Below, in pieces: positions 341-45,248 of a stretch of 64,000 nt of DNA (positions within the stretch are counted from its first letter, which is position 1; each line of letters begins with the position of its first letter). This stretch comes from Limonium bicolor. Its lineage: Eukaryota > Streptophyta > Magnoliopsida > Caryophyllales > Plumbaginaceae. Where the stretch lies: the NCBI GenBank assembly GCA_023374045.1, contig CM041777.1:481841594-481905593 (forward strand). The letters run 5' to 3'. The notes beneath the pieces are model-generated. The model worked only from the letters and a program-made list of their open reading frames with translations, made no database searches and was not told where the DNA came from. Position numbers and translations under genes: made by a program.

Positions 341-357
341 TGGCGCCGTCTGTGGGA
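341..357 (+). other. Primer-binding site of element A
   Basis: TGGCGCCGTCTGTGGGA starts two bases after the LTR end. The same 17-mer stands at 39683 in element B. This is the usual minus-strand priming site position, and the sequence is common in plant Tat-type Ty3/gypsy elements. I do not assign the tRNA with certainty. Confidence 0.85.
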
Positions 358-493
358 AACGAATGGCTCAAGATCTTTCTTGGCAACCACGAGTCCACCG
401 GAGGTAACCTGATTTTGAATGAAACAACGAAGTTTTGAAACTTTTAAGGTTGTGTCTCTTGCAGGAAAAAGCGAGGAAAGTACGCGTGCGAGG

Positions 494-1882
494 ATGGCTC
501 CAAGAACAAGGAAGACGCCCCGACCTGAGGGCGAGACCTATAATGTAAGAACAACCGAAAACAACAGAGCGGAAACTGAAGATGTGATCTCCAAGCAAGC
601 GTTGGAGGAGATGCTGAAAAGCTTAGTCAGAACCATTGATGAAAGGATAGTGGAGGGGAATGAGGTCCTGCAGCAAGAGCTGATGCAGCGAGATGTAGAA
701 TACCAGAAGAAATGGGAGGACATGACTGAGGCGCTCGAATCGCTCAAGAATCGCGGCTCCGAGGCGAGCAACAGCCGGAAGAAAGAGCAGCTAGAAAAAA
801 CTCTGATCATCAGCGACGAGACTGAGGAAGATGATTCGATCGACATGACTCTTTACCCCTTCTCCGAGAGAATCAGGAAGGCAAAGCTTCCTCCTCACTT
901 CGTTGCACCTGCAGTGGAAAAGTATGATGGAACGGGGGACCCTGCTCTTCACGTTCAGAAGTTTATGTTCGCGATGAACACGCAGGGGATAAGTTCTCTC
1001 GCCCTCTGCAATTTGTTTCCGGGAACATTATCCAAAAGAGCGCTCGGTTGGATCTCAACAAGACCCCCGCAGTCGATCTCAAGTTTTAAGCAATTGACTG
1101 AGGAGTTTCAGCAATACTTTGCCGCAAGCAAAAAGATCAAGAAGGAAACGATAGAACTAATGGATCTCAAACAGAGGAAGGGGGAGACAGTGAAAGAATT
1201 TAGCGAGAGGTTTCATAAGCAGGTAGCAGAAATCGATGACATTGATGAAAAGATCCTAATCAAGGCTTTCGGAAACGGGCTAGCACAGCCAAGGCTCGCC
1301 GGGAAGATCGCGACAAAGGCCCCAAAAACCCATGGAGAGCTAGCCGAAATGATTCATGAGTTTCTAAAGTCAGAGGTGGCGGAAAATAAGGCCAGAGATT
1401 TAGCAAATAGCTTCAAAGCGGTTAACGACAAGAAAGGAGGGTCGAATGGGAATGGCTCTTCCAGCAACATATCAGGAAGTTCATCTGGAGGAAACGCAAG
1501 ATACAAGCCTTACTACAAAGCTCCACCCCAGGCGCCTCAGTTTCAGAACGCCCGAGTTGCCGTTCAGATTGATCCAGGCAGGTATGCGGCGGCAGTCAAA
1601 GAAGGATATCTGCCTCCACCAAAGAAGCCTTATCCAGGGGAGATTCCGGTAGCCTTCTGTGAATACCATGGCTGCAAAAGTCACAGAACCGCAAACTGCG
1701 CCACTCTGGCCAAAGAGTTGAGGATCATCGAAGAGGACAAAAAAAGCAAGGGAAAGCAGGTGGCAGGCCAACAGAAGCAATATGGCAGGCAAAATCAGTC
1801 CACCTCTCGAAATCACCAGGAGGAAGAGATCCACCCTGAGCTTAATCACGGCAAATCAGTCGGTATGATCTCAGGTTTGTAA
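494..1882 (+). CDS. gag: Gag polyprotein, Tat-lineage element A
   Basis: This is the capsid/nucleocapsid protein that packages element RNA into cytoplasmic particles. The start is taken at MAPRTRK because element B begins with the same motif at 39818; an in-frame ATG at 419 lies in a leader with intron-like signals. The 462-residue frame is intact. An N-terminal charged helical segment (about residues 25-110) is followed by the conserved capsid core (about 125-300, including YDGTGDP, LFPGTLSKRAL and FSERFHKQVAEIDD), a Gly/Ser-rich linker, and a Cys/His knuckle near residue 390 with the order C-H-C-H-C (CEYHGCKSHRTANC). It ends GL-stop. The stop lies inside a predicted intron that starts at 1875, so spliced RNA would run on into protease. 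Confidence 0.9.
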   Translation: MAPRTRKTPRPEGETYNVRTTENNRAETEDVISKQALEEMLKSLVRTIDERIVEGNEVLQQELMQRDVEYQKKWEDMTEALESLKNRGSEASNSRKKEQLEKTLIISDETEEDDSIDMTLYPFSERIRKAKLPPHFVAPAVEKYDGTGDPALHVQKFMFAMNTQGISSLALCNLFPGTLSKRALGWISTRPPQSISSFKQLTEEFQQYFAASKKIKKETIELMDLKQRKGETVKEFSERFHKQVAEIDDIDEKILIKAFGNGLAQPRLAGKIATKAPKTHGELAEMIHEFLKSEVAENKARDLANSFKAVNDKKGGSNGNGSSSNISGSSSGGNARYKPYYKAPPQAPQFQNARVAVQIDPGRYAAAVKEGYLPPPKKPYPGEIPVAFCEYHGCKSHRTANCATLAKELRIIEEDKKSKGKQVAGQQKQYGRQNQSTSRNHQEEEIHPELNHGKSVGMISGL

Positions 1883-2062
1883 GAGGGTGGAGAAGTTTCT
1901 TCGTTTCTCTGGTGTTAGGTAGGCCCAGTCATGCCAACAATAAAGCAAGAGCGGTGTAATTGAACTTTTTTTCTTTTTAGAAAAGACCTATGTTGTAAAA
2001 ATCTTCCGGAATCTTCCGGTAATGAAAATCTAATAAACTTTTTCTCTTAAGCAAATTCTCAG
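1875..2062 (+). other. Predicted gag-pol intron, element A
   Basis: The donor is CTCAG|GTTTGTAAG and the acceptor AATTCTCAG|GTCTC; the segment is 188 bp and AT-rich. Removing it joins the last Gag codons to the protease frame, and the reading passes through residues (SGLFSEVGP) that match element B around its own intron. Unspliced RNA hits TAA at 1880-1882, just inside the donor. A second acceptor at 2073-2074 is also in frame. AATAAA-like motifs inside could also end Gag-only transcripts. The segment fits regulation of the Gag:Gag-Pol ratio. No RNA evidence is available here. Confidence 0.7.
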
Positions 2063-2432
2063 GTCTCTTTTCAGAGGTAGGACCGTTGACCCCGAGCGAA
2101 AGAAAAAGGCATATTCATGCGGTACATCAAGAGCTACCGGAAAGAAAAATCGCCAAGCGAGAGAATCTTCCCAGATTTTCTTTACAGACGAAGACGAAGA
2201 AGGGGTGTTATACCCTCACAATGATCCACTGGTCATTCGGGCGCAAGTAAATGACAGGATGATGGAAGGAATCCTGATAGACAGCGGGGCTGGAGCGAAT
2301 GTTCATATCGGCCGAGGCAGTTAAAAAATTGGAGATTCCAGAGAGCAAGATTAAGCCATATTCGGCGGTACTCGGAGGCTTTTTGGGGGCGTTTCCACCA
2401 AGTCTTCAGGGAGCATAGACTTCACATTAACA
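2063..2432 (+). pseudogene. pol: Protease region of pol, element A (two frameshifts)
   Basis: This aspartic protease releases the mature element proteins. The active-site motif DSGAGANV is at about 2280-2303. Compared with the intact element B frame (41394-42090), A has one extra base right after that motif and another indel near 2385-2392 in the Gly-rich flap region, so protease cannot be read continuously. The C-terminal signature YLGRPGINAF is back in frame at about 2508. Indels of one base could be decay or assembly error. Confidence 0.8.
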
Positions 2433-3811
2433 TTGGGATTGGGAGACGAACGAAGAACTGAAAAGCTCACAGCTTTCATTGTTCCAGGACTTTCCGGATA
2501 CAATATGTATCTTGGCCGGCCAGGGATTAATGCTTTCAAAGCAATATGCAGCACTCACCACCTGAAAATGAAGTATCTAACCAGGTCTGGAAAGGCGGTA
2601 ACCATTAATGGAAGTCAAAAGATGGCTCGGGTGTGCGAAGTCCGCATCATGGAGGGAATGCCGGAAGAAGAGATGATCAAAACAGTGGGGTCGGAGAAGG
2701 AATTCAAGGGAAAGCTCCCTCTCCCGCCAGAGCCGGATCAAAGAGCAGAAGACCGTGGAACCTCTAAAGAGTCACCACAAGAGGTACACCTAAAAACTGA
2801 CCCTTCTAAATTTTTTAAAATAGGAAATGCGTTCGGCAGTGGGGAGCAAACTCACCTGATGAGATTCCTGGAAAAAAGAAGGGTAACTTTCGCCTGGAGT
2901 ACGGACGAAATGCCAGGAGTAGATCCAAGCGTTATCCAGCATGACCTGCGAGTGGATCCAAAGCACCCAGCCATCCGGCAAAGAAGAAGAATAATAGGAG
3001 AGGAAAGAGACTTTGCGGCACGTGCTGAAGTGCAAAAACTGCTTAAAGCCGGATTCATCAGAGAGGTGTCCTATCCCAAGTGGTTGGCTAACGTTGTGAT
3101 GGTCAAAAAAGCAAATGGCAAGTGGAGAATGTGTGTGGACTTCACAGACCTGAACAAAGCATGTCCTAAAGACTTTTACCCATTACCATCGATAGATAGA
3201 CTGGTTGCTTCAACGGCTCAAAGTTCTGTCTTAAGTTTCTTGGATGCGTTTTCAGGATATAATCAAATAAGAATGAATGAGGAGGATTCGGAAAAAACAT
3301 CTTTTATTACCTCGGCCGGAACCTTTTGCTACAAGGTGATGCCTTTTGGATTAAAAAATGCGGGTGCAACCTTCCAAAGAATGATAGACAAAGTGTTCAA
3401 ACAACAGTTGGCCCGGAATGTAGAGGCATATGTCGATGATATCGTGGTAAGAAGTAATTCCTGGGTACAACACATGGAAGATTTAAAAGAAACCTTTGAC
3501 ACCCTAGACAGATTCCAAATCAAGCTGAATCCGGAAAAATGTGTATTCGGAGTTACAAAGGGGAAGTTCTTAGGCTTTATCGTTGGGCAAAGAGGGATTG
3601 AAGTGGATCCCGAAAAAACTCAGGCAATCCTCGATCTGTCACCACCAAAGAACATTAAAGATGTGCAAGCATTGAACGGGAGGCTCACGGCTTTAGCAAG
3701 ATTCTGCTCAAAACTCCAAGAAAAGTCAATACCATTTTTTAGCATTTTACAAAAAAACAAGAAATTCCAGTGGAGTCAAGAGTGTATAGACGCCTTTGAC
3801 AGGATAAAGAG
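2433..3811 (+). pseudogene. pol: Protease C-terminus, reverse transcriptase and RNase H start, element A
   Basis: This is the reverse transcriptase segment of Ty3/gypsy pol. In order: protease end (YLGRPGI), a linker, the RT entry motif (KWLANVVMVKKANGKWRMCV), finger and palm motifs (LDAFSGYNQI, MPFGLKNAGATFQRM), the catalytic YVDD box at about 3429-3440, the thumb (LNPEKCVFGV), and the connection to RNase H (ALNGRLTALARF). Catalytic aspartates are present. The open frame runs on to 3896 but leaves the true frame near 3810, where element B has one more base. No ATG is needed because it is part of Gag-Pol. Confidence 0.88.
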
Positions 3812-4439
3812 ATGCTCAAAGAGTTACCCAAGCTGGGTGTTCCGGCACCTGGTCAAGACTTGTATCTCTACCTCTCTGCCACAGATTGGGCGATAGCGGC
3901 TGTGTTAATAATGGAGGAGGAGAAAAAAGAGATGCCAGTATACTACACCGGAAAAATCCTAACTCCAGCGGAAAGCCGCTACACCAACATTGAAAAAATA
4001 TTGTTTGCATTAGTCGTTGCATCCCGAAAGCTTCGACCTTATTTTCAGTCACACCGGATATTCGTTAGAACAAATTGGCCACTAAAACAGATAGCAAACA
4101 ACCCAAACGCATCCGGGCGAATGGTTAGTTGGACTGTCGAGCTCACCCAGTACGAAATCCACTTCCTTCCTCGAACAGCCATAAAAGCACAGGCCTTGGC
4201 GGACTTTATAACTGAAACTACCTTTGCCCAAAAACAAAGAGAACCAACCAACCCGTACGTTATCCTAGTTGACGGAGCTCGATGCAAGACTGGAGCGGGG
4301 GCCGGAATAGTGGTCCAAACGCCGGATGGAAGAACTCTTAACTTTGCATTCCGGCTGGAATTTGAAGTAACCAATAATGAAGCAGAATATGAAGCCCTCA
4401 TACAGGGATTGGAGGTCGCCACTGCCTTAGGGGCAACAG
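3812..4439 (+). pseudogene. pol: RNase H and archaeal-type RNase H (5' part), element A
   Basis: Two RNase H domains follow one another. The first is the normal Ty3/gypsy domain (LYLYLSATDWAIAAVL, TNIEKILFALVVASRKL, up to ALADFITE near 4215). The second, from about 4255, has VDGARCKTGAGAGIV, TPDG, FEVTNNEAEYEALIQGL: the archaeal-type RNase H that marks the Tat lineage. The frame is cut at 4440 by an intron-like insertion that element B lacks. RNase H removes the RNA strand during cDNA synthesis; why Tat elements keep two is not settled. Confidence 0.85.
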
Positions 4440-4546
4440 GTTTTTCTAATAATAAAACAGGAGTTCTCATTTGTGTCTATAGGAATTTTTCTTTACATGC
4501 CTCCTAAAGGGGGAAAGTGGGACTTACCTCTTTGTTTGTTATGCAG
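4440..4546 (+). other. Intron-like 107-bp segment in archaeal-type RNase H, element A only
   Basis: The boundaries are CAACAG|GTTTTTC and TTTGTTATGCAG|AGTTAG. Removing it joins GCA ACA G to AG TTA GAA, which restores exactly the frame and residues found in element B (A-T-x-L-E-I-Y-S-D at about 43651-43683), where there is no insertion. The segment is AT-rich, has a pyrimidine tract before the AG, and contains in-frame stops. It may be a real intron gained by A or lost by B through retrotransposition of spliced RNA, or a small insertion that looks like one. Confidence 0.6.
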
Positions 4547-5767
4547 AGTTAGAAATATACTCAGACTCAATGCTAGTGGCGACAAAACGATAACATTTAC
4601 GAAGTCAAAGAGGAGAAGCTTGGAAAATACTTGGCCAAAGTCCAAGAGACGAAGGCAAACTTTCAGAGATGTGAATTAAGACATCTTCCTCGAGCAGAAA
4701 ACATAGAGGCCGATGCGTTAGCTAAACTGGCCAGTATGGCCGAAAGAATGCCCAGTAAAGTCTGGATGGAAATAAAGGCAAACTCAAGTCTGAAGGAGAT
4801 CCGAGTATGCACCATTGAATCAGACGCGATAGCCAAGTCTTGGATGGCACCCATTGTTGAGTACATACAAAGCGGAAACTTGCCACAAGATGAGAAAGAA
4901 GCGGCAAAAACAAGGCGAAGGGCTGCATCTTTCTTTTTAGAACAAGGACAGCTCTACAAAAGATCATTCGCGAGGCCAGCACTTAAGTGTGTTACCATAG
5001 AAGAAGGAGTAAGGCTCATGGAGGAGCTACATGAGGGGACCTGTGGGAACCACCAAGGAGAAAGGGCAATAGTCCACAAGATCCTAAGGCTGGGATACTA
5101 TTGGCCAAGGATGAGGGAATTTTCAAAAGAATACATACGGAAATGCATAAAATGTCAGGAACACGGCCACAAAATACACAGCCCCCCATCCACACTAAAA
5201 GCCATATTGTCCCCGATCCCATTTGCCATGTGGGGATTGGATATCGTTGGACCTTTTCCGGAAGCATCTCCCGGAAGATATAAATTCATTTATGTGGCCA
5301 TTGACTACTTCACCAAATGGGTAGAAGCCATGCCAACAGTATCCATTACCGCAAGAAAGTCACAAGATTTCGTCTGGAAGTATGTAGTCTGCAGATTTGG
5401 GATCCCGAAAGTAATAATAACAGACAATGGAACTCAGTTCAACTGTAAAAGCTTCCGGGAATTCTGTGAAGAATGGAAGATTGACCTGAGATTCGCATCG
5501 GTCGCCCATCCACAAGCAAACGGCCAGGTAGAAAATGCGAATGGACAAATTGTCAAAGCTATAAAAAAGAAGTTGGACAGCAAAAAAGGGAGATGGGCGG
5601 AGTTGCTACCTCAGGTTCTCTGGTCCTACAGGACAACCGAAAAAGGCCCAACAGGGGAAACTCCATACAGGTTGACCTACGGTCTGGAAGCAATTGTTCC
5701 GGCTGAGATTATAGTCCCATCGGTTAGATGGGAATCCTTAATGAAGAAAACAACAGTGAAGGGGTAA
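4547..5767 (+). pseudogene. pol: Archaeal RNase H end and integrase, element A
   Basis: Resuming after 4546 the frame gives the last RNase H strand (EIYSDS), then loses about two bases near 4586. From 4620 it is open: linker HLPRAENIEADALAKLAS, then integrase. The zinc-binding HHCC domain is at about 5020-5165 (LHEGTCGNH...CIKCQ). The catalytic triad is present: D in GLDIVGPF (about 5237), D in ITDNGTQF (about 5421), E in NGQVENANG (about 5530). Integrase inserts the cDNA into the host genome in the nucleus. The frame is left near 5760, and the C-terminal part continues in another frame. Confidence 0.88.
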
Positions 5768-6059
5768 AAGACGGCCTTGACCTGCTTGAAGAAACCAGGA
5801 CTATGGCCCAAGTCCGGATGGAAAGGGATAAGCGAAAGTGGAAAGATATTTTAACCAGAAAACAAGGGAAAGAGGCTTTGCTCCAGGTGAACTGGTCCTT
5901 CGGGAGGTAAAGCAACCAAAGAAGCTAGAGCCCCAATGGGAGGGACCATTTATAGTACAACGGCGAACAGGGCAAGCTTCATATCGTCTGAAAAATAGTG
6001 AAGGATACGAATTGCCTCACTCATGGCATGCCGAGTGCCTCAAAAAGTTTTATGTATAA
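5768..6059 (+). pseudogene. pol: Integrase C-terminal region, element A
   Basis: From 5838 the product reads RERGFAPGELVLREVKQPKK, then WEGPFIV and a C-terminus ending in HAECLKKFYV before a stop at 6059. This is the GPY/F-type module of Ty3/gypsy integrases; element B ends with the same residues at 45171. It is separated from the catalytic core by a frameshift around 5760-5838. No chromodomain is seen, as expected for Tat. Confidence 0.85.
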
Positions 6060-6119
6060 AAACATTCTTACTAAAAGCAATAAAATGAGGTATTCCTTTA
6101 AAGCAAAATTTTTAAATGT

Positions 6120-6540
6120 ACCATCCGGCCAGTGTGCCTACAAGGCTATCATGCCTTGAAATGTACCATCCGGCCAGTGTGCCTAACAGGCTATCATCCT
6201 TGAAATGTCCATCCGGCCAGTGTGCCTACAGGCTATCATGCCTTGAATGTACCATCCGGCCAGTGTGCCTACAGGCTATCATGCCTTGAAATGTACCATC
6301 CGGCAGTTGCCTACAGGCTATCATGCCTTGAAATGTACCATCCGGCCAGTGTGCCTACATGCATCTGCCTGAAATGTACCATCCGGCCAGTGTGCCTACA
6401 GGCTATCATGCCTTGAATGTACCATCCGGCCAGTGTGCCTACAGGCTATCATGCCTTGAAATGTACCATCCGGCCAGTGTGCCTACAGGCTATCATGCGG
6501 CTTGAAATGCACCATCCGGCCAACATGCCTATAAAAACTA
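6120..6540 (+). repeat. Minisatellite, about 10 copies of a 44-bp unit
   Basis: Copies beginning ACCATCCGGCCAGTGTGCCT start at 6120, 6165, 6208, 6251, 6295, 6337, 6378, 6421, 6465 and 6511, so the period is 41-46 bases. The rest of the unit reads GCCTACAGG-TATCATGCC-TTGAAATGT. It starts 60 bases after the pol stop. Element B has a 44-bp repeat in the same place. Tandem repeats in the 3' untranslated region are known for Tat-lineage elements. Confidence 0.95.
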
Positions 6541-9130: not shown

Positions 9131-9571
9131 GTGGGTTAGTATCTTCCAAGATAGCACCATGGGCCGGATCGGAAGAGAAATACCCTGCCAAGTCAGGAAA
9201 CAATTCACAAATGGGGGTTGGGTGACCAGATCCCTGCCCTGAACGAGAGGCAGACCCCTGGCCTGAATCAGGAGTAAGAGGGAGAAAGACGCGACGCCCA
9301 GACCCTGGACTCACGTACCAAGTACCTGGCAAATCACCGCTTGAACGGGCTGGAGACCCAGTAATTTTCTTTTTCTTCTGACCAGGATGGTCCTTGTCTT
9401 CATCGTCCCCTTTGCCTCTTCTTGGAGGGGTGGCATTCCCAAGGAGCCTCGTGGCCACGTCAACAGCCGCATCAACAGATGCATAATAGTCAACTTGCTC
9501 ATCCCCCATCTTGAAGCCGACAAAATTCCAGCTGTTGAAGGGCCCCACCTTATCTCCTTTAGAAAAGAAAT
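9131..9571 (-). CDS. Antisense gene exon 2, element A
   Basis: It starts after acceptor GGCAG at 9572-9573 and encodes FSKGDKVGPFNSWNFVGFK, an acidic stretch (DEQVDYYASVDAAVD), a Lys-rich stretch (GQKKKKITG) that could be a nuclear localisation signal, and GSGRRVFLPLTP. Element B exon 2 has the matching VGPFHSW, KVDYYATLEAVEE and GSGRRVFLPLTP. The donor CCCAC|GTATTG at 9130 keeps phase with the exon 3 acceptor at 9055-9056 (76-bp intron). Confidence 0.65.
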
Positions 9572-9645
9572 CTGCCGGAACGATGGGAAAGTGAGAGAAC
9601 AGGTCAAAGGTAAAATTTAAGTAAAACTGGCCAAATAAGACTTAC

Positions 9646-10402
9646 TGTGATATTTTTTCAATGATTCCAGGCGCTGGGGTAAAAAATACGGAGACCGTAG
9701 GCTGTTTTTTGCTTATCACCTTCAGGATTTTCGAGATAGGTATTTCTTGCGCCGGGGAAGGAGGACAGCTGAATTGGCCTTTCGGGATCAAGGGGCAATA
9801 GGGAACTCCCAAAAATCGGCCTGGTGGTGGGACAATGACGAACCATCGGGAGTTCCACCCGGAAGACGCTTTCTTATAATCGAAGAGAGAAAAGCCGGCC
9901 TTCGCCTTGATAGTCAGGCTATCAGGATCGTCCCTTGTGGTATAGAATTGGACGAATTCGGTCGCTTCTACCCGAATTTTGCTCTCCTCACAGAGGAGAA
10001 CATAGGCATGGAGGTAAGAAATTGCCTTCGGGTGTAGGTGAGCAAGCATGCAGCAGCGCCGAATCAGGAACCCAGAACAAATGGATGAGGGGGCACGGTC
10101 AGGCCGCGAGGGAAAAAGTCCGCATAAACGGCATATCCAAGCCCGAAATCATCGTAGGGATGTGAGTCGGCGGAAGGAAGGAAGATGCAAGTACCCAGTG
10201 GGACTTCGACGTCTTTCAAACAGGAGAGAAGGGAGGAGGTATCCAAGGAGGATGGAGAAGGTTCTCGGTCAGCCGAGAAAGGCGCGGTAGATTTCAGGTG
10301 AGTCGGGCGAAACCCTTGGGGTGAAAAGGTACCTTGAATCGCCTCTCTAGCAGGGACGAAATTCGCAGCTGCCTTGTTTTTCTTCGAGCTAGACGACGCC
10401 AT
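9646..10402 (-). CDS. Antisense gene exon 1, element A (Transposase_28-like domain)
   Basis: The exon encodes an N-terminal Ser/Lys-rich tail and then a conserved globular domain: GTCIFLPSADSHP, GYAVYADFFPRGLTVPPHPF, HPKAISYLHAYVLLCEE, FVQFYTTRDDP, FSLFDYKK, WNSRWFVIVPP. Element B has matching blocks (GYAVYSDFFLRGMTVPPHPF and so on) with conservative changes. This copy lacks one A near 10068 that the duplicate at 11664 has, so it breaks at FVLGS. The donor at 9645 is CACA|GTAAGT. Confidence 0.75.
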
Positions 10403-10897
10403 CAGAGTAAGAAAATGGAGAGCAAAGCGAAGCGAAAAGAGTGAAAGATTCGAAAAAAGGATGCAAGGAGAGGCGACGGAGTCTGGGCGAACAAGGAAAG
10501 AAGGTATCTGAAAGAGTTCGAAGCTAAAGCTTTGGAGAAAAACGATTCCCGCCCAGTTGATAAAAATTAAAGGGAGATCCTGCACCTTCCTAGAAACAGG
10601 GCGCCGACACAAAAGCGACTCTGCAAATTCTACATCGAAAAGGCGCAGGCACGGGCCAGGCACGGGCAAGAGCACAATTAGAAAGAGAAAGTTCTTTTTC
10701 CTTTTTTTTTAAAGAACAAAGAAAAAGAAAAGAGAACTTGTGGGACTAAGGGGAAATGATAGCCGGAAGAATAAAAGGCCCCAGCAGGAAGAGCAAAAGG
10801 CCATAGCGTCAGAATAAAAAAAAAGCAACAAAAGCACACGCTGAAAGAGAAAGTTCTACTTTTTACGTTAATATATCAAAAGTAGAACTTGTGGGAC
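10403..10897. promoter_or_regulatory. Leader of antisense gene and 3' UTR of element A, with two hairpins
   Basis: This is noncoding. Two inverted repeats are each followed by AACTTGTGGGACT: 10690-10747 (arms rich in AAAGTTCTTTTTC and GAAAAAG...GAACTT) and 10851-10898. The second has perfect 13-base arms, AAGTTCTACTTTT (10851-10863) and AAAAGTAGAACTT (10878-10890), with a 14-base loop, and runs straight into the 3' LTR, where the polypurine tract should be. Element B has the same arrangement. The region should also hold the promoter for the minus-strand gene. Confidence 0.7.
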
Positions 10898-11165
10898 TGA
10901 TGAAGAGGGAAAAGTACGAGAATAAGGAAGAATAGAGCATCCGGCTCCATGTGCCAAGAAGGAACAGCTTAGAACAAAGGATATCGACCGGATCGGAGTG
11001 TGATCCGGCCGGATGAGTAATTAAATATCCCACTTATATGTAAATGCCAGCCTGGCAATTAAAAAGAAGGACAGGCTGGCAACTCTCGATTTGACAATGT
11101 AAAACACTATAAATAGGGGTTCAACCCCACAATAAAGGACACGTTCTCACACTCGAATTACACAC
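10898..11165 (+). repeat. Truncated 3' LTR of element A (U3 only)
   Basis: It starts TGATGAAGAGGGAAAAGTACG and matches the 5' LTR from 10981 (window base 1) to 11157. It then stops about 50 bases after the start of the TATA box (11108-11115), close to the expected transcription start, and jumps to a second copy of internal sequence. R and U5 are missing. The exact LTR start could be 10898 or 10901. Confidence 0.85.
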
Positions 11166-12418
11166 AAGAAATCTGCCGGAACGATGGGAAAGTGAGAGAA
11201 CAGGTCAAAGGTAAATTTAAGTAAAACTGGCCAAATAAGACTTACTGTGATATTTTTTCAATGATTCCAGGCGCTGGGGTAAAAAATACGGAGACCGTAG
11301 GCTGTTTTTTGCTTATCACCTTCAGGATTTTCGAGATAGGTATTTCTTGCGCCGGGGAAGGAGGATAGCTGAATTGGCCTTTCGGGATCAAGGGGCAATA
11401 GGGAACTCCCAAAAATCGGCCTGGTGGTGGGACAATGACGAACCATCGGGAGTTCCACCCGGAAGACGCTTTCTTATAATCGAAGAGAGAAAAGCCGGCC
11501 TTCGCCTTGATAGTCAGGCTATCAGGATCGTCCCTTGTGGTATAGAATTGGACGAATTCGGTCGCTTCTACCCAATTTTGCTCTCCTCACAGAGGAGAAC
11601 ATAGGCATGGAGGTAAGAAATTGCCTTCGGGTGTAGGTGAGCAAGCATGCAGCAGCGCCGAATCAGGAAACCCAGAACGAATGGATGAGGGGGCACGGTC
11701 AGGCCGCGAGGGAAAAAGTCCGCATAAACGGCATATCCAAGCCCGAAATCATCGTAGGGATGTGAGTCGGCGGAAGGAAGGAAGATGCAAGTACCCAGTG
11801 GGACTTCGACGTCTTTCAAACAGGAGAGAAGGGAGGAGGTATCCAAGGAGGATGGAGAAGGTTCTCGGTCAGCCGAGAAAGGCGTGGTAGATTTCAGGTG
11901 AGTCGGGCGAAACCCTTGGGGTGAAAAGGTACCTTGAATCGCCTCTCTAGCAGGGACGAAATTCGCAGCTGCCTTGTTTTTCTTCGAGCTAGACGACGCC
12001 ATCAGAGTAAGAAAACGGAGAGCAAGAGCGAAGCGAAAGTGTGAAAGATTCGAAAAAAGGATGCAAGGAGAGGCGACGGAGTCTGGGCGAACAAGGAAAG
12101 AAGGTATCTGAAAGAGTTCGAAGCTAAAGCTTTGGAGAAAAACGATTCCCGCCCAGTTGATAAAAATTAAAGGGAGATCCTGCACCTTCCTGGAAACAGG
12201 GCGCTGACACAAAAGCGACTCTGCAAATTCTACGTCGAAAAGGTGCAGGCACGGGCCAGGCACGGGCAAGAGCACAATTAGAAAGAGAAAGTTCTTTTTC
12301 CTTTTTTTTAAAGAACAAAGAAAAAGAAAAGAGAACTTGTGGGACTAAGGGGAAATGATAGCCGGAAGAATAAAAGGCCCCAGCAGGAAGAGCAAAAGGC
12401 CATAGCGTCAGAATAAAA
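11166..12418. repeat. Partial tandem duplication of element A 3' internal region
   Basis: Bases from 11166 repeat 9565-10820 with roughly 1% difference (single substitutions and one-base indels, e.g. 9766 C versus 11367 T; 10068 versus 11667). The copy holds antisense exon 1, intron 1 and a few bases of exon 2, plus the first hairpin. It runs into a gap where the second LTR copy would be expected. It may be a real rearrangement (template switch, unequal exchange) or a haplotype/repeat misassembly next to the gap. Confidence 0.9.
11246..12002 (-). pseudogene. Second copy of antisense exon 1 (element A duplication)
   Basis: The start codon is at 12002 (MASSSSKK). Unlike the first copy it is open through FVLGFLIRRCCMLAHLHPKA, but it then loses frame near 11571 where one G of the first copy is missing (ACCCAATTT instead of ACCCGAATTT). 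Each copy therefore has one private indel. Intron 1 with donor at 11245 is kept. It belongs to the same Transposase_28-like domain. Confidence 0.75.
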
Positions 12419-16033: not shown

Positions 16034-19000
16034 TGTAACACCCTACTACGCACAAACTATACTTGGAATCGCAGCGGAAGATAAACAACTAAACGGTAAC
16101 TAAACGATTGGTGCTACAATGCCGTCAACCACCCACGTGGCTAACAAGGCTGAATAAATACAAATGTACCGGTCTGATGATCAGACTCCCGAGCATAGAA
16201 CTAACAACCATATATTACATCAACATAATACAGAGTGTTTACAAAATCCTTCACTGTATACCATCACTGTAATCCATCATAACAAGTATATAACACACCA
16301 CGGGAGCAGGCGCATCCCGGGCAAACATCCAAAGTACTCCAAAAGTAAACTACTCTCTAAGATCTAGAGCACTCTGCCTCTTCGATCCTCATCCTGCAAT
16401 AAAAATATGGAGCCCCCGAGGGGGTCAGCACCTTTGCTGGTATGGCTAACGCGCAGCCCATCGGCTACCGGGATACGCGCAACCAATTGTCATGATGACA
16501 TGATATTTATTTTAAAACACAACACATAACATATAAACATAACACAGGTATTGTACACATCATAACACACATCACCACATACAATTCCTTTTAGGAGAGA
16601 ACCAACACAGTTAGTCCCCATTGAGAGCCTAGAGAATGTTGCCACGCTCATACTTAGCTCGTTACATAACTCGTTACCGTCCGGTTAGATTGAACGGTTA
16701 ACTTAACACAAGGTGCCTCGGATATAGTGATCCAAGCACACCGAAACAAAAACATAATGCCCCTGTGGCCCGACGTGAGTCAGTAAAATAGCCTTGGTTA
16801 AGCTAAAGGGAAGGTTAGAAACCAAATTGGAACTAACCATAACATACAGAGAGATCGAACCGGTTTATGACATCGACTCCCATACTCACACGCGTGGCCG
16901 GACAGACCGGATCCTCACTTCCCCGTTAGCCCTTGTTAGTAGCTCATCATTGAACACAACACACAGTTCACAATCATAGGTCAAGTCTTGTTAGACCCAC
17001 ACAAGGGAAGAGAGAGTCACACTTAACAACATAATATATTTAACAACTGTAAACTCTTTACATGGTTTAATCTTACAAAGTCATAAACACACAGAAAAAA
17101 CAAACAACACACAAGCCGGTGTAAACCGGTAGGCAACAGACTACAAGAAAACCATACTCGGTCCTTGCCTCGACTGGTTTCCACCTTGGAAGAATCCTAA
17201 ACACATTAGTAACGTCGGTTAATTAACGCACTAGTCCATTGTTAACATTATCTACTCAACACTACTAGTTTACTTTTATTTTACACTTGTTACAACTTTT
17301 CATCCTTTTTAATTGCCTTTAAAACTCACCTAACATGTCTTGCTTAACCTCATATATCTTACTAACCAACTACTATTTTAGGTAACAATTCCATCTTAAA
17401 ACAATAATTTTTGGTCCATATAGTGCCCTGTCCAAACTTGTCCGAGCTTCCAAGTTCGGACACCAGCCGTGATTTTAGACAGAAAACAGACACATGTCCG
17501 AACTTGTGTCCGGACTTCGGAAGTTCGGACATGAGAGGAAAATCCTAACCAGACATCCATACGTCCGAACATGTGTCCGGACTTCCAAAGTTCGGACACA
17601 GTTCGAGGATAATCCCTAAGAAATAACAGGTGCGTCCGAACTTCCAAGTTCGGACACTACTAAATCTAGAAAACTGTAAGCGTAACAGGGCATGTCCGAG
17701 CTTCCAAGTTCGGACGGGAAGTTCGGACGTGCCATTATACTCAACTTCTAAGCCTTTAAACACTTAACCAATTTCTCCAAGCCTCCAACACTTATAGTAT
17801 CTTCTCCTTAAGTTTTCTAAGTGGCCTTCCTTGCCTATTCCAACATTATTCCTAGATATTTCTTCCACACAACATCATTACTTTAACATCATTTCTTACA
17901 AACTAAAACTCCTTAAGTCATTCTTGAAATCCCTTTTTTCCTAAGCTTACACTTCCTCCTTATTTTACCAAGTTTGCCTAAGCCTTCATCTAAGTCCAAA
18001 ATGACTTTGGTACATACTAAAACCTCAAGATCATGCCTAAGTCCTTATTCCACTCTAGAACACTTCCTAGTTCATCAAAATTCCTTTACAACATCTTGAA
18101 CTCCTTATGCATTTTCTAAATTTCGACATAGTTTCTCCTAGCATTTTGTTACACCTTAGCACAATTTTTCATCATTAATCATCCTAGAACACTAAGAACA
18201 CCAAGACACTTTCTTACACAACTTCACCAAATTCCACACTACATCACAATATAGTGCATAACTTAAATTGCATGGCACTTAGGCCCTTAAAATGCATGGC
18301 TCTTAGGCCCTTAAAGTGCTTAAACTCATAAACACTGAATTTCCACAATATATATGCCTTTAACCTGCGATTACATACAACAAGACATATGTATTTTACT
18401 AGTCTCCTTGAGAACATTTACTAGGTCATTTACCATGTGCTCTTTAGGTAGTTTTAATAAGCAATTATAGCTCATTTCTCCTAAGGCATTTAACAACATT
18501 AAGTTAGTAGATTTACCTCTTTTCCACCACACTTCCTTCTTGTTTCCTTACAAAACCGTATGGTATTTTGTTCCTTGTCAAGTTCTAAACAATATACAAA
18601 CATTATAATGAGTATTCAGCTATAAGCTTCATCTCATTGTAAACCCTAATTTGACATTGTTTCAAAAACATTAATGTAGTTGTTTTACCTTGATCTTTGA
18701 AGAGAGTTTGAATATATAACAAGAGAGGACTCCACCTAGTCCATGAAGAGTTGAAATGAAGCTAGAACAAAGTCACACAAAGAGCTATATCAATGTGTTT
18801 TCGGTTAAGGTAAGAACATGGAGGAGGAAATGATTTTTCTTTGAGATTCCTTACCTAGAAGCAAAGGAGAGTAATAATATGTCAAAATACAAGATCAAGC
18901 TCCTTCAATGGTGGAACACCTTGGCACCGAAATGGAGCCTTGGAGTTTTGAGAAGATAGGAATGAAGAGCTGATGAGAGGAAGAATTGGTGGTCTTTGTT

Positions 19001-19795
19001 TTTGATTTGTACAAGTGAGCTAGATTTAGCAAGTGGTCAAAGTTGGAACTTCCATGGTGGTAGTAGTATTACCGAGAGAGAACAAGGAAGAAGGAAGAAG
19101 AGTGGTGTTTGCAAACCGTGGAATGAAGGAAAGAAATGAGAAGAATAGGATTTGCTTTTAAGAAGATATTTATGTTTATAAAGTAAAAAGTAAGTTACTT
19201 AGTTTTCTTTACTTATATTTATTATCAACTAAAGAGTGGTGAGTCACACACTTATAAAAACCGGCCCCTTTATTAGTGAGGTGTTTTAGTCTTTGTTTGT
19301 CAATTTAATTACTTAATAAACATATGTTACAAACTAGCTAAAAAAGTACTATTCACCTAAACAAGGCACTTAGAAGTGAAATTTTTGATTTCCCACTAAT
19401 ATAGCCACCCAAATGTGATACTATATAGTACACATATATATTTAAGAGTAATGATGGACATTTAGCCATTCAAAACTCATTTACAAGACAATTTTTCAAA
19501 AACGTGCTTTAAGACTTCTTAAAGCACATTTTGTGTTTTAACTTGTTTTCAAACTTGGTTTTCTTTGGTAATTGGTTTAATAAGTTCATTAGTATATAAA
19601 TGAGGTCTTGGTAAGCTCATTAGGTCTTACTCAAGTTTATCCCAAGCTTAGAGCACATTTTAGCTCTTATTGACTTTAAAGCACATTTGTGTTTCCTTTT
19701 GTTTAAATTGTTTAGTAAGGTTTCTAAGACTCTTTTTAGTCTTATTACACCCTATTTAGGTGTTTAAACAACATAACTAGGTTTGGGGTATTTCA
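16034..19795 (-). repeat. 5' LTR of minus-strand Del/Tekay-like element (3.76 kb)
   Basis: On the minus strand it begins TGAAATACCCCAAACC (19795) and ends GGGTGTTACA (16034), directly before the PBS. The 54885-58662 solo LTR is homologous along its length, including the 16035-16990 block with GGTAGCCGATGGGCTGCGCG (minus strand) and the dyad array. No gene is visible inside; small open frames are chance. The matching 3' LTR is not in the window. Confidence 0.9.
17430..17735. repeat. Array of five inverted-repeat motifs inside the LTR
   Basis: Units of the type GTCCGAACTT...AAGTTCGGAC start near 17438, 17494, 17571, 17633 and 17693, spaced about 55-75 bases. Arms are 7-10 bases and pair across short spacers such as CC or a second GTCCGGACTTC. 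The same array is present in the solo LTR at 56310-56635 and a sequence-unlike one at 32190-32360. Confidence 0.85.
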
Positions 19796-20824: not shown

Positions 20825-21818
20825 GATTCAACCTCGATCATCAAATTCAGTGGCATCTCATGCTTCCGGGATATGTTCCCTAGCATTTGGCAACGATCAC
20901 GGGAGGCAATAAAGGTGTGGCAGTCCTTATGAAGCGTTTTCCAGAAGAACCCGGATTGTAGTACCTTAGCCGATGTCCTTGCTGGCCTGTGATGCCCTTC
21001 TACCTCAAGAGAGTGGCGAAGTGGCAGTGGGTGAGAATGTTTTGCACTTCGCTCATCGGTATGCATCTCCTGATCATCCCGTCGGTACAGACTCTACAAA
21101 GGTAGGGGTCATCCCAGCAGTAGTGTTTGATGTCGGCGAAAAATTTCTTCATCTGCTGGTATGTCATCTCATACGACACTACTCCCCTCACCAAGTAGTT
21201 TGCGATGTCGATAAACCAAGGCCCAGGTTTCTCCAATTGTGAACACGGTTTCATCTGGAAAGAGCTCATTAATCGGGGTACCATCATCCGGTGTCTTCAT
21301 ACGAGAAAGGTGATCACAACAACATTTTGAGTGCCCGGTTTATCTCTAACCTCAATTTCAAACTCTTGGAGCAGAAGGATCCACCTCAACAGTCTCGACT
21401 TGGCGTCCTCCTTGGTGAGCAGATATTTGAGAGCAGAGTGGTCTGTGTGTACAATCACCCTACTACCCAAGAGATAGGAACGAAACTTATCTAATGTAAA
21501 GACCACCGCTAGAAGCTCCTTCTCGGTTGTGGCATAATTTTTCTGAGCATCATTAAGGGTCTTGCTTGCATAGTAGATAGTCCTCTGAATTTTCTCCCTC
21601 TTCTGACATAGGGCTGCTCCCACTACATAGTCACTTGCATCAAACATTATTTCAAAGGGAAGGCTCCAATCCGGTGATACAACTATCGGGGCTGAGACAA
21701 GTCCTTCCTTGAGGGTGTTGAAGGCCTTTAGACATTCCTCGTTGAATTCAAATTTGGCATCTTTGGCTAAGAGGTCACACAGAGGTTTAGAGATTTTAGA
21801 GAAGTCCTTAATGAACAT
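20825..21818 (-). pseudogene. pol: Athila-lineage pol fragment: RNase H and integrase N-terminus
   Basis: From 21818 downward the minus strand encodes [20 protein letters not shown], then the RNase H region ([62 protein letters not shown]), which is typical of Athila. From 21290 to 20825 follow the integrase linker and zinc domain (KKFFADIKHYCWDDPYLCRV, CTDGMIRRC, then KVLQSGFFWKTLHKDC and RCQMLGNISRKHEMP) in shifted frames. Two inserted LTRs bound it. It is a relic without function. Confidence 0.88.
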
Positions 21819-23850
21819 TGAAATACCCCAAACATTAATTACCTTAATTAATAAGGAATTAATTTAAATAAAAGGAAATAATCAGTATTATCCATCTAAT
21901 GATCAACATTCATTATGGAATATTATTATGAAAATATATTGTCCAAGATTGACACTAAATCATACATAATTCTCTAAACAAAGAGAGAACATTATTAAGG
22001 AGAAATCAACTCCTAAAATTATTTAAACATGTAACACATCAATACATGTGAAAAGACCACAAACAATGTGGAGAGATTATATAAATTATTTTTATAACCA
22101 AAACTAAGTTCCTAGTGTATTAACTACTCTAATACACTCATTTTAACAAGGAGATAATATATGCCATAATATAACATATAAACTTAGTCTAATGTACAAC
22201 AATTAAGTGTAACATTATAATGTTACCAAAATTTCAATCCCCCAAAAAAAAAAATCATTAAGGAGCCGGCTGCATTGGTATAAGGGAGGATTTAAAATGG
22301 TGTTAGGCAAATAAAATAAGACAACAAGTACATGTAGCTTACATACCTAGTCTTATTATAATGCTACTTTCTTTACAAAATATCTTTCTTCCTCTCTCTC
22401 ATCCTTACACAAAATCGACAGCCATCCCTTCCCACTTGATCAATTAGTCGTAAAAGAGTGAGCAAAGAGAAAGAAAATAAGAGTAAATTAAGGAGGAAAG
22501 AGAAGAGACTTGTACTTGCTTAGAATAAACTAATACTTTAAGAAATCTTCTACAATACATAACATATCCTACCCCCATTCCTTCTTCTTTGCCAGCACAC
22601 AACCCAGCCACTCTCTCTTTCTCCTTCCAGCCGTGAGGTAAGGCTTCTCTTTTCCCTTTTGCTTTGTCTTTTAAAACTCCATTAAAGACATTAAGGTTTA
22701 CCTTATGAACAATCACATAAAATAATGGGTTTAAATTGGAAATCTGGGGAGTATAATATATGGTTAGAAACCTTATGATATAAGGAACATTATAATGTAT
22801 AAAATGCATTGTATAATATTAAGGTAAATCCTTGATAAAAGATTTGTGAATAAATGACACAAATAGAATCATAAGTTCCTACACATGAAATAACAAAAAG
22901 AAATCATTATATGAATGAGTTCTAGGATTCATATAAGATAGTATGGAAGTAAGGATTATAATATAAGGTTGGGAACCTTATAAAGTTAAAGGAAATAATA
23001 TAATATGTTTATGACATTATATGTAGCAATATAACAACTAAGATTATAACCTTAGTAAATAATATGTAAATACTAACATATTGGGAGTTAATATATCTCA
23101 CATAAAAATAGAAATATCATTAGTATAAATTGGAATTATAATTCATTTTGAATTACACGGATATATGGAATGAGTGGAAATGGTTATTGAATCATAATTA
23201 ATGAATTAGAGGTATATTATGAAGTCGAAATTCATTATCACATGTGACTGCCACATAAATAATGATGTTCTAATTACCTCGGATCACAGTTAATAACCGA
23301 GTAAAATTAATCAACATACGGGGTTAGGATACCGGGGGTATTAGCTCTGTATTATATATAGCGCCTTACGTTAGTGCTAGTCGTATTAACGCTACTCGGT
23401 ATATGCATGTACGTAAATCAGCACTTCGAGGGATAACTGGAGCACGTGAATCGTCACGCTAGTGATTTTACGGTGAATGGTATGTTAATTGTGTGGTCTA
23501 AGCGTCCTGAGGGTTTCCTCGGGTTCAGACATTGTGTGTTTAAATGTTAAGAGTGATATCTGTGATTATGCATGTGATCATATAAACTGTATTACTCGAT
23601 ACTGTTGCGTTTTATTGTACGCGAGCGTTATGGAACATGAAGTTTACAGCTAAACTTAAACATGACTTAGATGGCTTTTAGGTATCACGAGAACCTAATT
23701 AGCAATCAATCAAGGATGGTTTACACCTAAAGATTAGATCTTAGGTTAATGGTTAAAGGAACTTAGTCACATGACGGGTTTGGATGGGAAAATCCAGTTA
23801 GTCTCGGCTAACTGGTTGTGCAGCGTGATCACGACGAGGGACCTTGGTTT
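21819..23850 (+). repeat. Truncated LTR (5' part) inserted in the Athila remnant
   Basis: It begins TGAAATACCCCAAAC at 21819, right after Athila pol sequence (possible TSD AACAT at 21814-21818). It is AT-rich, and the block GTGAATGGTATGTTA...TTCAGACATTGTGTG near 23470-23540 matches 29850-29925 in the solo LTR. No GGGGTGTTACA end is present; it fades into a GC-rich repeat at about 23850. No gene is seen. Confidence 0.75.
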
Positions 23851-26246: not shown

Positions 26247-29200
26247 TGAAATACCCCAAACTAATAAAATATGGATTAAATATTTAATCACATTGATTAA
26301 GGCCTAAACATGCCTTAATAGTCAACTGAGGACAACAGTGGTCAACACAAAGCAAGATGTTGCACCCTTTGACTGTTTAGGGTAAATAAATACCCAAATG
26401 AACTTCTTAGGACCTAAGTTTTTCCTAAGCTTATTAACACATTACTAAACATGTTACAATTTTGTACAACACTCCAACACAAAGAACAGGCATTTACATG
26501 CTTCAAGGTCAAGTAGGGCAAAAATGTGCTCTAAGAATACCTTAAAGGTCTAATGACCTCTGAATGATATAAAATTGGATACCATGATCAAATATCATGT
26601 AAGGAACACAACAAAACTGTTCTCAAAGAAAAAAGCTCAGAAACACCCTGCGACTCAAAATGTGCACTAAAATTTCTTAAAGCACGTTTTTTGTGTATGA
26701 GCTCTAAGATAATGACTTTTTGTCACTGTAAAGACTATATTAAGTTCTTTATAACATTAATGTGACATGATAGACTATATTATAAAGTCTAAATCAAATA
26801 TTAAAAATAAAAATCAAAATGGGCAATTTAGTATGAATAGTAACCCAAATAGTACATTTTTAGGCAAATTGACCAAGTTTGGTCAATGGTCAATTAATTG
26901 ACCCTTATCCATAGCTGTCGGCAGGCAAGGAGGTGGGGAGACAGCTCACACACCATTAGTTGCTAATTATTTACCTAACACCATTTTACTATAGCAAAAG
27001 TTACTTTTCAATCATTTAAGCTTCTTTCCTCTCATTCTCTTGCCTCTTGTCCCATTCCATCCAATCCAGCAGCTCTTCCAAACCCTCTCAAGCTGTGTTC
27101 TTGAGTATGGAAGACAAATCTAACTCTTAAGCACCTAAGGTAATGGTTTAAGGCTTATTTTAGCTTTTTTTCTTCATCTCTTCATTACCTACACCTAGAT
27201 CTCGTGACTTATCACTTCCTATGGCTTATTCTCAGTGTTTTAAGGTTAGAACAAACACCAATCTCGGCTGAAGCAAGTATAGGGACCAATGTTTCCCAAA
27301 TTTGCATTTTAAGGTAAAAACATACCTTAAGCTTCTCCTTTCTCCATCCAGTTTTCTTCTCTTGATTTTTATGAGTTTATACACTCATAATCTTCATATT
27401 TACATGTTCATTTAGTTGGTTAGCCATTTGGAGCAAGGGTGGCCGAGATCTAAAGCAAATACCCTTCTTTAAGGCATTTTGCCAAGGTAAAACCTATTAC
27501 CATAGCAGCTTGTTGTTGTATAGCTATTTCCTATGTTGATATGGTGAATTTAACACCATTTGGTGTGTTTTATTCAGGCCGAATTCCTTTGGAAGTTCCC
27601 TTGCATTTTAAGGTGATTTTTGCCTTAAATCTTACATTAATTGTTCCTTATGGTTAAGTTCAAGCTTGGAGTATAACCATATCTTATTTTGGTGTATTAA
27701 ACATGTCTAAATGATGTGGTGAATTTTCCTTCAAGCTGCCGAGTTGTTACAAGGAAATCAAGGTATAAACACCTTAAAACTTATGATTTTATGACTTCTT
27801 AGCATATATATTAATTATGCCAAGAGTGGAGTTAATAATATGGGTTATATTAACCTAAAAATGGAAAAAAATGACTAAGATAAATTAAGCTAGTCATTTA
27901 AGTGATTTAATTAACATAATGGTCAAATTATGACATTATATGGAAAAATAATTAAGCTACAGCAAGGCCGTGAGCTTATACTATATTTTGAGCAATTTTA
28001 TGTGTAATTTTATGTTGTTAAGTAAGGTTGTAATAAGGCCATGTCATTAGGCCATTTTAATTTAAGTTTAAAGCTTATTGAGTTTAATTTATGCTTATAT
28101 AATTAAGTTTGGGGCCAAACCGTAATTACTGAATCTAAAGCCGTGGGCTTAATTTAGAGGAATTTAGGGTTTTTAAATGAATTTAATAAAATTATAACAT
28201 TTTATAAGTTTTGTGTCAAAATTGTAAAAATAGAAAAGTATGGGGTAAGATTGGTAATTACCGAGAGTTTGGGTCCAATTTGGTATTAGAAGTCAAAGTT
28301 GACTATATAGGAGACTTTGACCAAGTTTGGAGAATTTAAGAAATTAAAATACTACCTTATATTAAGATAGTTATTAAATTGTGAAAGATTTATAAGAGAT
28401 GGGGTTATAATGTAATTTCCGAAACTTTGGGGTACTAAATGGGATTTAGTACAGTCTTTAAGTTATTAGGAATTTTTAGAAGTTTATTTGGTTAAATTTG
28501 GAGTTTATATGGATTATATAAGTATAATATATGATATTTTATAACATTGTTACAAATGGGTAACAAATGGGTAAAAACCGAGATTTATAGAAAGTATAAG
28601 GTTAGGAATAATATTTATAACCTTTTGGTATAGTTTGGTAATTTTTGGAGTTATATATAAGTTTTTACAAAGATATATGTATAATATATAGTTTTTATGG
28701 CATTAGAAAACTATGTATTATAAATTGGGAAGACTTGGTATATATTCAAAGTTTGGTGGTAGGAATTTAATTAAAACAGTCCTAGGGTCTGTTCGAAAAT
28801 TATAGCCTTTAAAAAACTATAGGTTATAATTATATTAAGGTTTAAGGATTATAATATAAGGTATGTATTATAAGTGTAACAATGAAATATAATTTGGGGT
28901 TGATTTGTAATTTATGGAAGTATAGTGGTAGAAAATAAAAACCGAAAGTATAAAGGGTTGTTTGGTATTTATTAACAATGTATAACTATAGGTTATAATT
29001 GTTTTAATGACATAAATGTCATAATATATGTTATATAGCTATAATATAACATTATATTAATTATGTGGTGGATTTTGTAAATACTTAAGAAAATAGGTGT
29101 TGTTCGGAAATATTAACATTTTTAAATGAAATTTATAATATGGTTTTAATGTTATAAGAATTATAACATTTATAATATAAGAGGTATTCATTAAAAAGAA

Positions 29201-31423
29201 TGAATATATATTATTAAGACTTACCATATAATAAAAAGTTCCATAATACATGTATATAAATAAATATATGTTAAGGTGGAAAAATATAATATGGTTTAAT
29301 AACCATGTATTATCATAATTTAAAATGATATAAGGTGAAAGGAAAAAGAATTACAAACATTAGATATGGAAGTTCTAATGTTAGGAGTATACATGGAATA
29401 ATAAGGATTTATATAATTCAAAGTATTGTTTACATATGAATTATACCACATTGAACTTGGAAAAACAAACCTTAGAAAAATAAATACTAAGGTGAGATGT
29501 ATAATACATGATAAAGAATTATACATGTAGTATAGAAACAAACTATATAATATACAAGGGTATACTAGTTACATGCGATAATAAAGATCAACATTAAGTA
29601 TATTAATATACGACACAAGACTACGCATGTAATATAACATTTTTCCAAGCTCGAGTTAAGCCGAGAAACCCGACAAACGTTGACAGTTATAACGGGGGAA
29701 TTAACCGTGAGGTTTTAGCGACGGTACGGGGTACCGTAGAGTTATGTTGTTATACGGGATTCTAATTGGTAGTGTTGTGTATTGTTAGACTGTTAGAGAC
29801 GACACGAGGAGCATCGGATCTAGCTGATTCATACTCCACCGTAATACTTTCAGGGTGAACGGTATGTTATTTATGTGGCTTGTTTGTCTCTGAGGATTTC
29901 CTCAGTTCAGACATTGTGTGAAAATCTGTGTTAAGATTGGATGTCTGCTTGTGTGAATTAATATGCTTGAGCTGTGTATTAATGCTGCTTTATTTTTATT
30001 ACTGTTGATCGATAACAGTACCGTTCGTATATATGAACATATTATAAAACGAACTAGCGGCAATGATGCTATCTTATATGTGTAATATAAGGAACGTAAG
30101 AAAAACGTTGTAGCATTAGGATTATAATATATATAATATATATATTATCCGAGACTTATATACGGAGCACTGGCCTGTTTAACGCCGCTCTCGTATCTAA
30201 CACTGGATCCCGAGTCGACATACTCAGGATTGGACTAATGACCTTAGTCTGCTGTGTTAAGATGAATAGTAAAACGATGCGATGGAATAAATAAGTTTAT
30301 CAAGAGGATGTGGCTCTTGCAGTGAACTGTGATCCATTAACGATACTAGGATACCGTGTGGTAACCGTAAGTGTCTGGATAAATTTCCAACGAACTACAG
30401 ATGGTTCGTCGGTCGGAGACTCTACCGCTGGAGTGGCTACTGCCGTGGGTGACCCGCCATAGGAGATGGGTAACTTAGAGACACATCGTTCTAACGAGAC
30501 GTTGTCGTTAAGCATGACCGAACAATTACAAACGACTATATTAGCTCATACATTAGGCGAACACTATTTGGGCTTGTATGCCAAAGACGGGAAATTATAC
30601 TTGTTTATAATTCTCGTTGCTTCGCCTTGTTGCTCAGTGGTTATGCTTTGTAATTATGTGTGGTATGTTGTTGGATTTATTTGAACGAGCCATTGTGCTC
30701 GTATTGTGTTGTGAATTGATTGAGTCGAGTCGCTGTGCTCGTGAGTGGATTATTGTGGATTATTTGGTCGAGTGAGTCGCCGTACTCAGTTATGAACTAT
30801 CAAGTGTTTGTTGAAACAGAGTCCTTGTACTTATATAAGCGTTGTAACGTATTCAGTGGTTTATTACGATTCGATGTGTGAAGCCGGGGGCTTGTTTGCT
30901 AATTGAGTTTATTGCAATATATATTGTTGCTTTACAGTTTTTTATATTAAACTACTTGCATGAAAATGAATTGCATGCTCTCGACCAATTAACTGAGGGT
31001 CCGAGGGGGCATGACAGTCATGTAGTAACATACTCAGCAGGGGCTGATTCCATACCACAACAACCATTTTTGCAGGTATGCAGCTTCCGGTGTCGGCAAA
31101 GAGAGGGACGCGCTGGGTAGTTTAGTTACAGTTGTTTTAATATGCACTGTTGCATTTGATTCGAACTTAGAAACATGTATACGATTGGGATACTTAGAAT
31201 GCTCACTGTGAATGTATTTTATATATTGGCTTGGGAAGGTTAGATCTATCTCTTGTTGTCACTGTGGGAAATTGTTTCGTATTTATGGATATATTAGTAA
31301 GCACGTTATTACTCGTATGGGCGAGTGAAAACGGTGACACCAGTAGTTCAATTGTTGAGATTAGCGCTACGATTACCGTGTTAAGTAAGATGATTAGGAG
31401 CCGATTAGAGTAGGGGTGTTACA
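26247..31423 (+). repeat. Complete solo LTR, 5.18 kb, Del/Tekay-like family
   Basis: It starts TGAAATACCCCAAACTAA, ends TAGGGGTGTTACA and is flanked by the 5-bp duplication ATTTT, with no PBS after it. That is the signature of LTR-LTR recombination after insertion. The interior is AT-rich, noncoding, and homologous to 53134-54884 plus 58668-60080. The 30930-31423 end matches the minus-strand fragment 38461-39023. No gene is supported; the short open frames (e.g. 30300-30684) have no recognisable product. Confidence 0.88.
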
Positions 31424-39023: not shown

Positions 39024-39104
39024 TGAAGAGGGGAAAATACGCCCAGAAGACCCAAAAAGAGAGCAACAACCCAACAGAGCAAAGAGCAGGGAAAGGGAGG
39101 CCAA

Positions 39105-45171: not shown

Positions 45172-45248
45172 AAATCGATGTAACTCATTGACAACATCAA
45201 TAAAGAAGTTATTTTTGGAAAAATTCGAACGCAAAAGAAACAGGATGT

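Follow-up and report, generated by a model that had tools for sequence, protein, structure and literature searches.

A candidate facultative intron at the gag stop codon of Retand-type LTR retrotransposons in Limonium bicolor

In the Ogre elements of the Tat clade, known from Pisum and Medicago, an intron that is partially spliced separates Gag-Prot from RT (PMC6317226). Among Ty1/copia elements, BARE1 and EVADE separate Gag from Gag-Pol by alternative splicing near the gag end (PMC3735527, PMC12786077), and Bianca has two ORFs that lie about 172 bp apart on average (PMC6317226). In the abundant Retand lineage, gag and pol form a single ORF in 37 of 63 clusters and two ORFs in the remainder, a large minority (PMC11963269); the account of these clusters names no mechanism that would join the two ORFs, and the main text of that paper lacks the word "intron" and has "spliced" only in a cited title. 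No report of an intron between Gag and Pro in Retand was found in the literature searched, which covered few subscription journals. An intron at the Gag stop would be a specific answer to the question of how many plant gypsy elements produce Gag in excess of Pol.

Our analysis concerns a stretch of 64,000 nucleotides from Limonium bicolor (the window), which holds two retrotransposon copies, A and B. Element A appears to begin within its own 5' LTR at the window edge, and B spans about 39024-50571, with LTRs that are 97.9% identical. In A, Pfam identifies Retrotrans_gag, RVT_1, RT_RNaseH, RVT_3, Integrase_H2C2, and rve; the domains matched in B are gag, RVT_1, and RNase H. The Tat clade is defined by an additional RNase H (aRH) alongside the normal RH (PMC6317226). 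In A, RT_RNaseH is followed by RVT_3 (E=5.1e-6, above the cut-off; the C-terminal portion of this domain, located in the following ORF, falls just below), and the order RT_RNaseH, RVT_3, Integrase_H2C2, rve over 3800-5764 places the aRH between RH and INT, as in Retand and Ogre; the use of this order as a lineage trait follows PMC6317226. Retand elements are also described as having an antisense Transposase_28 ORF and, in about half of them, tandem repeats after pol (PMC11963269). Both copies have a weak match to such an ORF between pol and the 3' LTR, each under Pfam's own cut-off, and both have tandem repeats after pol (Table 1). The repeat units, each just after pol, differ between A (43 bp) and B (44 bp). 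Ogre carries an extra ORF1 5' of gag (PMC3305785, PMC1142308); A has none there, about 150 nt separating the LTR/PBS region (about 343) from the Gag ATG at 494. Nor does A have an intron at the Ogre position, as one ORF continues from protease into RT. Among Ty3/gypsy elements, A belongs to the Tat clade and is best placed in the Retand lineage, on the basis of domain order in A and of structural traits found in both copies.

Table 1. Positions of the gag, intron-like, and lineage-related features of elements A and B in the window
Feature	Position	Strand	Details
gag of A (Retrotrans_gag)	494-1882	+	PF03732 E=2.1e-13; translation ends ...SVGMISGL, then stop
Candidate 5' splice site of A	1872-1882	+	CAG/GTTTGTAA; 7/9 matches to CAGGTAAGT; also forms Gag stop
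Proposed intron 1 of A	1875-2062	+	188 nt, phase 1, GT...AG
Candidate branch point of A	2030-2034	+	CTAAT, 29 nt before acceptor; sole CTRAY in segment
Candidate 3' splice site of A	2053-2062	+	AAATTCTCAG; segment ends ...TCTCAG
Start of pro-pol exon of A	2063-2165	+	GLFSEVGPLTP..., conserved in B and P0001; frame broken downstream
Protease C-terminal part and reverse transcriptase of A	2355-3896	+	one ORF; RVT_1 E=1.5e-33
Proposed intron 2 of A	4440-4546	+	107 nt, GT-AG, inside additional RNase H
Post-pol tandem repeats of A	6114-6522		43 bp x 9.4
Antisense Transposase_28 ORF of A	11571-12344	minus	PF04195 E=0.0012, 19.5 bits
Candidate donor of B	CAG/GTCTGTAA	+	Gag stop 41169-41171; 7/9 matches to CAGGTAAGT
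Corresponding proposed intron of B	41164-41393	+	230 nt, phase 1
CTAAT of B	41363-41367	+	27 nt before acceptor; only CTRAY in segment
Start of pro-pol exon of B	41394-42169	+	GLFSEVGPLTP..., open through protease motif DSGAGANV
Post-pol tandem repeats of B	45240-45393		44 bp x 3.5
Antisense Transposase_28 ORF of B	48685-49602	minus	PF04195 E=1.6e-5, 25.5 bits vs cut-off 26.2

The window contains further repeats. A 1.25-kb direct duplication (9565-10819 and 11166-12418, 98.8% identical, with an LTR fragment between the copies at 10981-11164) ends at a 500-N gap and may have arisen through misassembly where element A ends. Three pairs of long repeats with 81-91% identity (16034-19795 and 54885-58662, 26496-28114 and 53246-54882, 28112-29526 and 58663-60080) look like fragments of a single additional repeat family present in two places, and an RNase H domain on the minus strand at 21300-21863 (PF17917, E=1.7e-36) belongs to a further retroelement.

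Gag of A ends in IHPELNHGKSVGMISGL, and its stop, TAA at 1880-1882, occupies positions +6 to +8 of the donor GT at 1875. B's Gag ends in VHPELDHSKSFGVITGL with the same TAA at donor +6 to +8. The initial annotation of this DNA, made from A, had claimed that the donor site itself forms the Gag stop and that skipping 188 bases to an AG restores the frame; both observations were confirmed. CAG/GT splits the final Gag glycine codon (GGN) in both copies, and the sole difference between them in the donor-stop block is synonymous (TTG or CTG, Leu). Past the acceptor of A (CAG/GTCTC) the frame reopens as GLFSEVGPLTP and reads G-LFSEVGPLTPSERKRHIHAVHQELPERKIAKRE, so that excision of 1875-2062 joins MISG to LFSEVGPLTP. 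The segment of B ends in TTACAG, its excision joins VITG to LFSEVGPLTP, and the frame then reads G-LFSEVGPLTPNERKRHVHEVHRELPDKKDTKHQ, 70% identical to A over 33 codons (pS 1.11, pN 0.15). Both segment lengths are 2 mod 3, and the segment bodies hardly align outside the splice signals. A second in-frame AG lies 12 nt 3' of the acceptor in both copies (2074 in A, 41405 in B), but its use would delete GLFS, residues that are retained in a fused relative, P0001, described below.

Synonymous divergence between the two copies has reached saturation (pS 0.85-1.11, pN 0.05-0.15 over the four segments used; gag core pS 0.90, pN 0.05), and because dS is saturated we report pS and pN and set dN/dS aside. 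Low pN despite saturated pS indicates that the shared layout is old and that both flanks evolved as coding sequence. Alignment of family members for phase and for the stop after the donor, proposed as a check in the initial annotation, gave the expected result: B retains the donor, the stop, the phase, and the coding sequence past the acceptor, in a comparison of two copies from one window and one protein (P0001). The claim that the restored frame runs on into a protease conserved in B stood for the start of the second exon; A is not cleanly open through the whole protease, as a further break in its frame precedes the catalytic DSGAG motif. Neither copy is intact, A's pro frame being broken after the conserved exon-2 start and B's Gag near its end, and for this reason neither could make the fusion now.

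Searches of the protein database, one of which scored only the 7996 candidates with the greatest word overlap, yielded three relatives (P0001-P0003). P0001 comprises 653 residues and comes from a 13,909-base ENA contig. It shares 58-59% identity with the Gag of A and B and continues into protease as one protein (...DHSKSFDFGVITGLFSETEPLTTKEKKRHVHEVHEELPP...); its DNA may be uninterrupted, or the protein may reflect a gene model. Its fusion point (...GVITG-LFSETEPLT) falls at exactly the predicted junction residue. P0002 and P0003, each from a contig of 24,665 bases that may be one and the same, do not reach across the junction and thus speak neither for nor against it. A search of viral contigs found no relatives, prokaryote genome contigs gave two distant RT matches (36% identity, in bacterial bins) that were left out of the analysis, and plasmids gave three records carrying distant RTs.

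We enumerated GT-AG joins near the Gag end and scored them against P0001, with donors at 1800-1884 (A) and 41100-41174 (B), acceptors at 1890-2119 (A) and 41180-41449 (B), and pairs under 60 nt excluded. The 57 pairs in A include 26 open joins, of which 1875/2062 ranks first (161 versus 152 for the runner-up); the 72 pairs in B include 18, with 41164/41393 at the top (181 versus 167).

P0001 also bears on an alternative in which Gag and Pro-Pol are separate proteins and the spacer is kept, with Pol made by reinitiation at a spacer AUG or from another subgenomic RNA. Foamy viruses, which make a separate Pol from a spliced RNA, provide a precedent. In B, the open pol frame contains two ATGs shortly before the acceptor (41366 and 41384, within 41294-41384), which leaves reinitiation as the strongest remaining alternative for that copy. 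However, A has no pol-frame ATG from the frame opening at 2026 to 2172, about where the frame breaks; the ATG at 41366 in B overlaps CTAAT, and the residues that would be added before GLFSEV are not common to A; and P0001 is a single fused protein. We regard separate production as unlikely.

The composition of the segments is consistent with an intron at this site. Their U content is 0.346 in A and 0.287 in B, and none of the windows sampled over the remainder of gag-pol reaches these values (0 of 673 in A and 0 of 684 in B; overlapping, step 7). They are AU-rich (0.64 and 0.63 versus 0.45-0.53 in the flanks), with a GC content of 0.36-0.37 versus 0.47-0.55. Splice sites and branch points were scored against their general consensus motifs. 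By this measure the segments have the GT-AG edges, donor (7/9) and branch-point consensus, and U-rich body of a U2-type intron. Only 3 of 234 GT sites in 344-6057 of A score at least 7 against the donor consensus, the one at 1875 included, as do 6 of 237 in B, again counting its own donor. At +3 and +4, where A is usual, the donors carry T/C and T, which counts against the intron reading. The probability of a CTRAY 18-45 nt upstream of the acceptor in both copies is 0.113 x 0.130 = 0.015, from mononucleotide shuffles.

Short direct repeats flank each segment: TCTCAGGT at 1869-1876 and 2057-2064 in A, and TTACAGG at 41158-41164 and 41388-41394 in B. The last six bases of the exon are the last six of the intron within each element and differ between elements (TCTCAG and TTACAG), which could be due to chance, homogenization, or separate insertions at the same AG/GT. 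The probability of 2.7e-4 obtained for the boundary repeats was calculated post hoc with A and B taken as independent and was discounted; the repeats could imitate splicing in RT-PCR through template switching.

Such 7- to 8-nt repeats would likewise be left by an insertion with target duplication, and the spacer might then be something other than an intron, a small mobile element or a product of decay, within a once-fused gag-pol of dead copies. The fused relative without the segment, the poor alignment of the two segment bodies, and the imperfect inverted pairs inside the segments (1893-1909/2024-2040, 76%, in A; 41185-41195/41375-41385, 91%, in B) agree with this. However, none of the inverted pairs lies at the segment ends adjoining the boundary repeats, and they differ between A and B. 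The two copies share the site, the phase, the stop, and CTAAT despite synonymous saturation, and the downstream pol amino acids are conserved. A known structured RNA was rejected as the identity of the segment, as an Rfam search of the window at the gathering threshold matched no family, which also counts against an insertion. We judge an insertion somewhat less probable still than separate production of Pol. No BLAST self-match of at least 100 nt, a limit that shorter or more diverged matches would escape, links the segment to its flanks, and a recent tandem duplication is thus unsupported.

Frameshifting, readthrough, and bypassing fare worse. Either of the first two is said to be the common route in gypsy elements (PMC3735527), but here the pol frame is closed after the Gag stop for 143 nt in A and 173 nt in B, so a frameshift at the gag end cannot reach pol, and further stops in the gag frame within the segment (three in A, eight in B) keep simple readthrough from reaching it. 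Both are excluded by sequence in these copies, and a programmed event of either type joining Gag to Pol is extremely improbable. This agrees with the initial annotation, which proposed a switch that needs neither. Alternatively, ribosomes could leave at the Gly-Leu-stop and land on matching sequence 188-230 nt downstream. The take-off and landing sequences are alike in A (TCA GGT ... TCA GGT), and the stop lies near the take-off codon, as in the bypass of T4 gene 60 (PMC5009743). However, the T4 bypass spans 50 nt rather than 188-230, the landing Gly codon differs in B (GGA, not GGT), and bypassing leaves the U-richness, the CTAAT, and the GT-AG edges unaccounted for. We consider it very unlikely.

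A second intron-like insert is present in A at 4440-4546 (CAG/GTTTTT...TTATGCAG/AG), where it splits the RVT_3 domain; B is without an insert at the same place. Without these bases A reads IQGLEVATALGATELEIYSDS, compared with IQGLEVAIALGATDLEIYSDS in B, and this placement is the best of 14 open joins (26 pairs enumerated) for a B-like peptide; the other placement, 4422-4528, was set aside. We take this insert as further support for the intron reading at the gag end. The insert has a U content of 0.39, matched by none of 709 sliding windows, and four YTNAY motifs, one of them, CTTAC, 20 nt from the acceptor. Its donor matches the consensus at only 6/9 positions, a score reached or exceeded by 22 of 234 GT sites, its own included.

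Taken together, 1875-2062 and 41164-41393 are probably a facultative spliceosomal intron separating gag from pro in Retand-type LTR retrotransposons. The geometry of the sites, the phase, the stop, their conservation, and the exact match of the join to the fused relative can be read from the sequences themselves. If the intron is retained, translation would end just beyond the exon at the donor-built stop, giving Gag (...ITGL/ISGL); if it is spliced out, Gag would be fused to Pro-RT-RH-INT. The earlier reading, in which retention makes Gag and splicing makes Gag-Pol, is thereby supported as the best explanation of the sequence. Full-length, intron-containing RNA would act both as the genome and as the message for Gag, while the spliced form would be the message for Gag-Pol, and we propose that splicing efficiency would therefore set the ratio of Gag to Gag-Pol. 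We infer that splicing occurs, that it is partial and sets this ratio, and that the unspliced RNA is packaged. The weak donor positions +3 and +4 may fit partial splicing; the same positions encode the Leu common to both products.

More speculatively, Retand may have evolved a gag-pol intron of its own, separate from that of Ogre, with a donor that doubles as the Gag stop. The intron codons GGT YTG TAA might have been chosen so that both products share ...GL, perhaps the same end as that from protease cleavage at GL/FSE. It is also possible that two-ORF Retand elements share this switch and that the boundary repeats and the A-only second intron reflect recurrent intron gain and loss.

A partly spliced gag-pol intron is already known in kind from Ogre; the position, the lineage, and the donor-as-stop layout look new. 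The two-ORF Retand elements resemble A and B in the antisense Transposase_28 ORF and the post-pol tandem repeats described for them (PMC11963269). Bianca belongs to another superfamily, and the account of it in PMC6317226 comes without splicing evidence. In BARE1 and EVADE the logic is reversed, splicing giving Gag alone and the unspliced RNA giving Gag-Pol (PMC3735527, PMC12786077). The initial annotation was right to cite Ogre as a precedent for this kind of switch, but the Ogre intron sits between Gag-Prot and RT (PMC6317226), whereas the one proposed here lies between Gag and Pro, and A has none between Pro and RT. Consequently, retention would here give Gag without protease, in contrast to Ogre. 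At 274 bp, the mean gap between the Ogre ORFs (PMC6317226) is similar in magnitude to the segments of 188 and 230 nt found here. An intron at the Gag stop would raise in plants the retroviral problem of exporting and packaging intron-containing RNA, and it would permit a comparison with Ogre within one clade.
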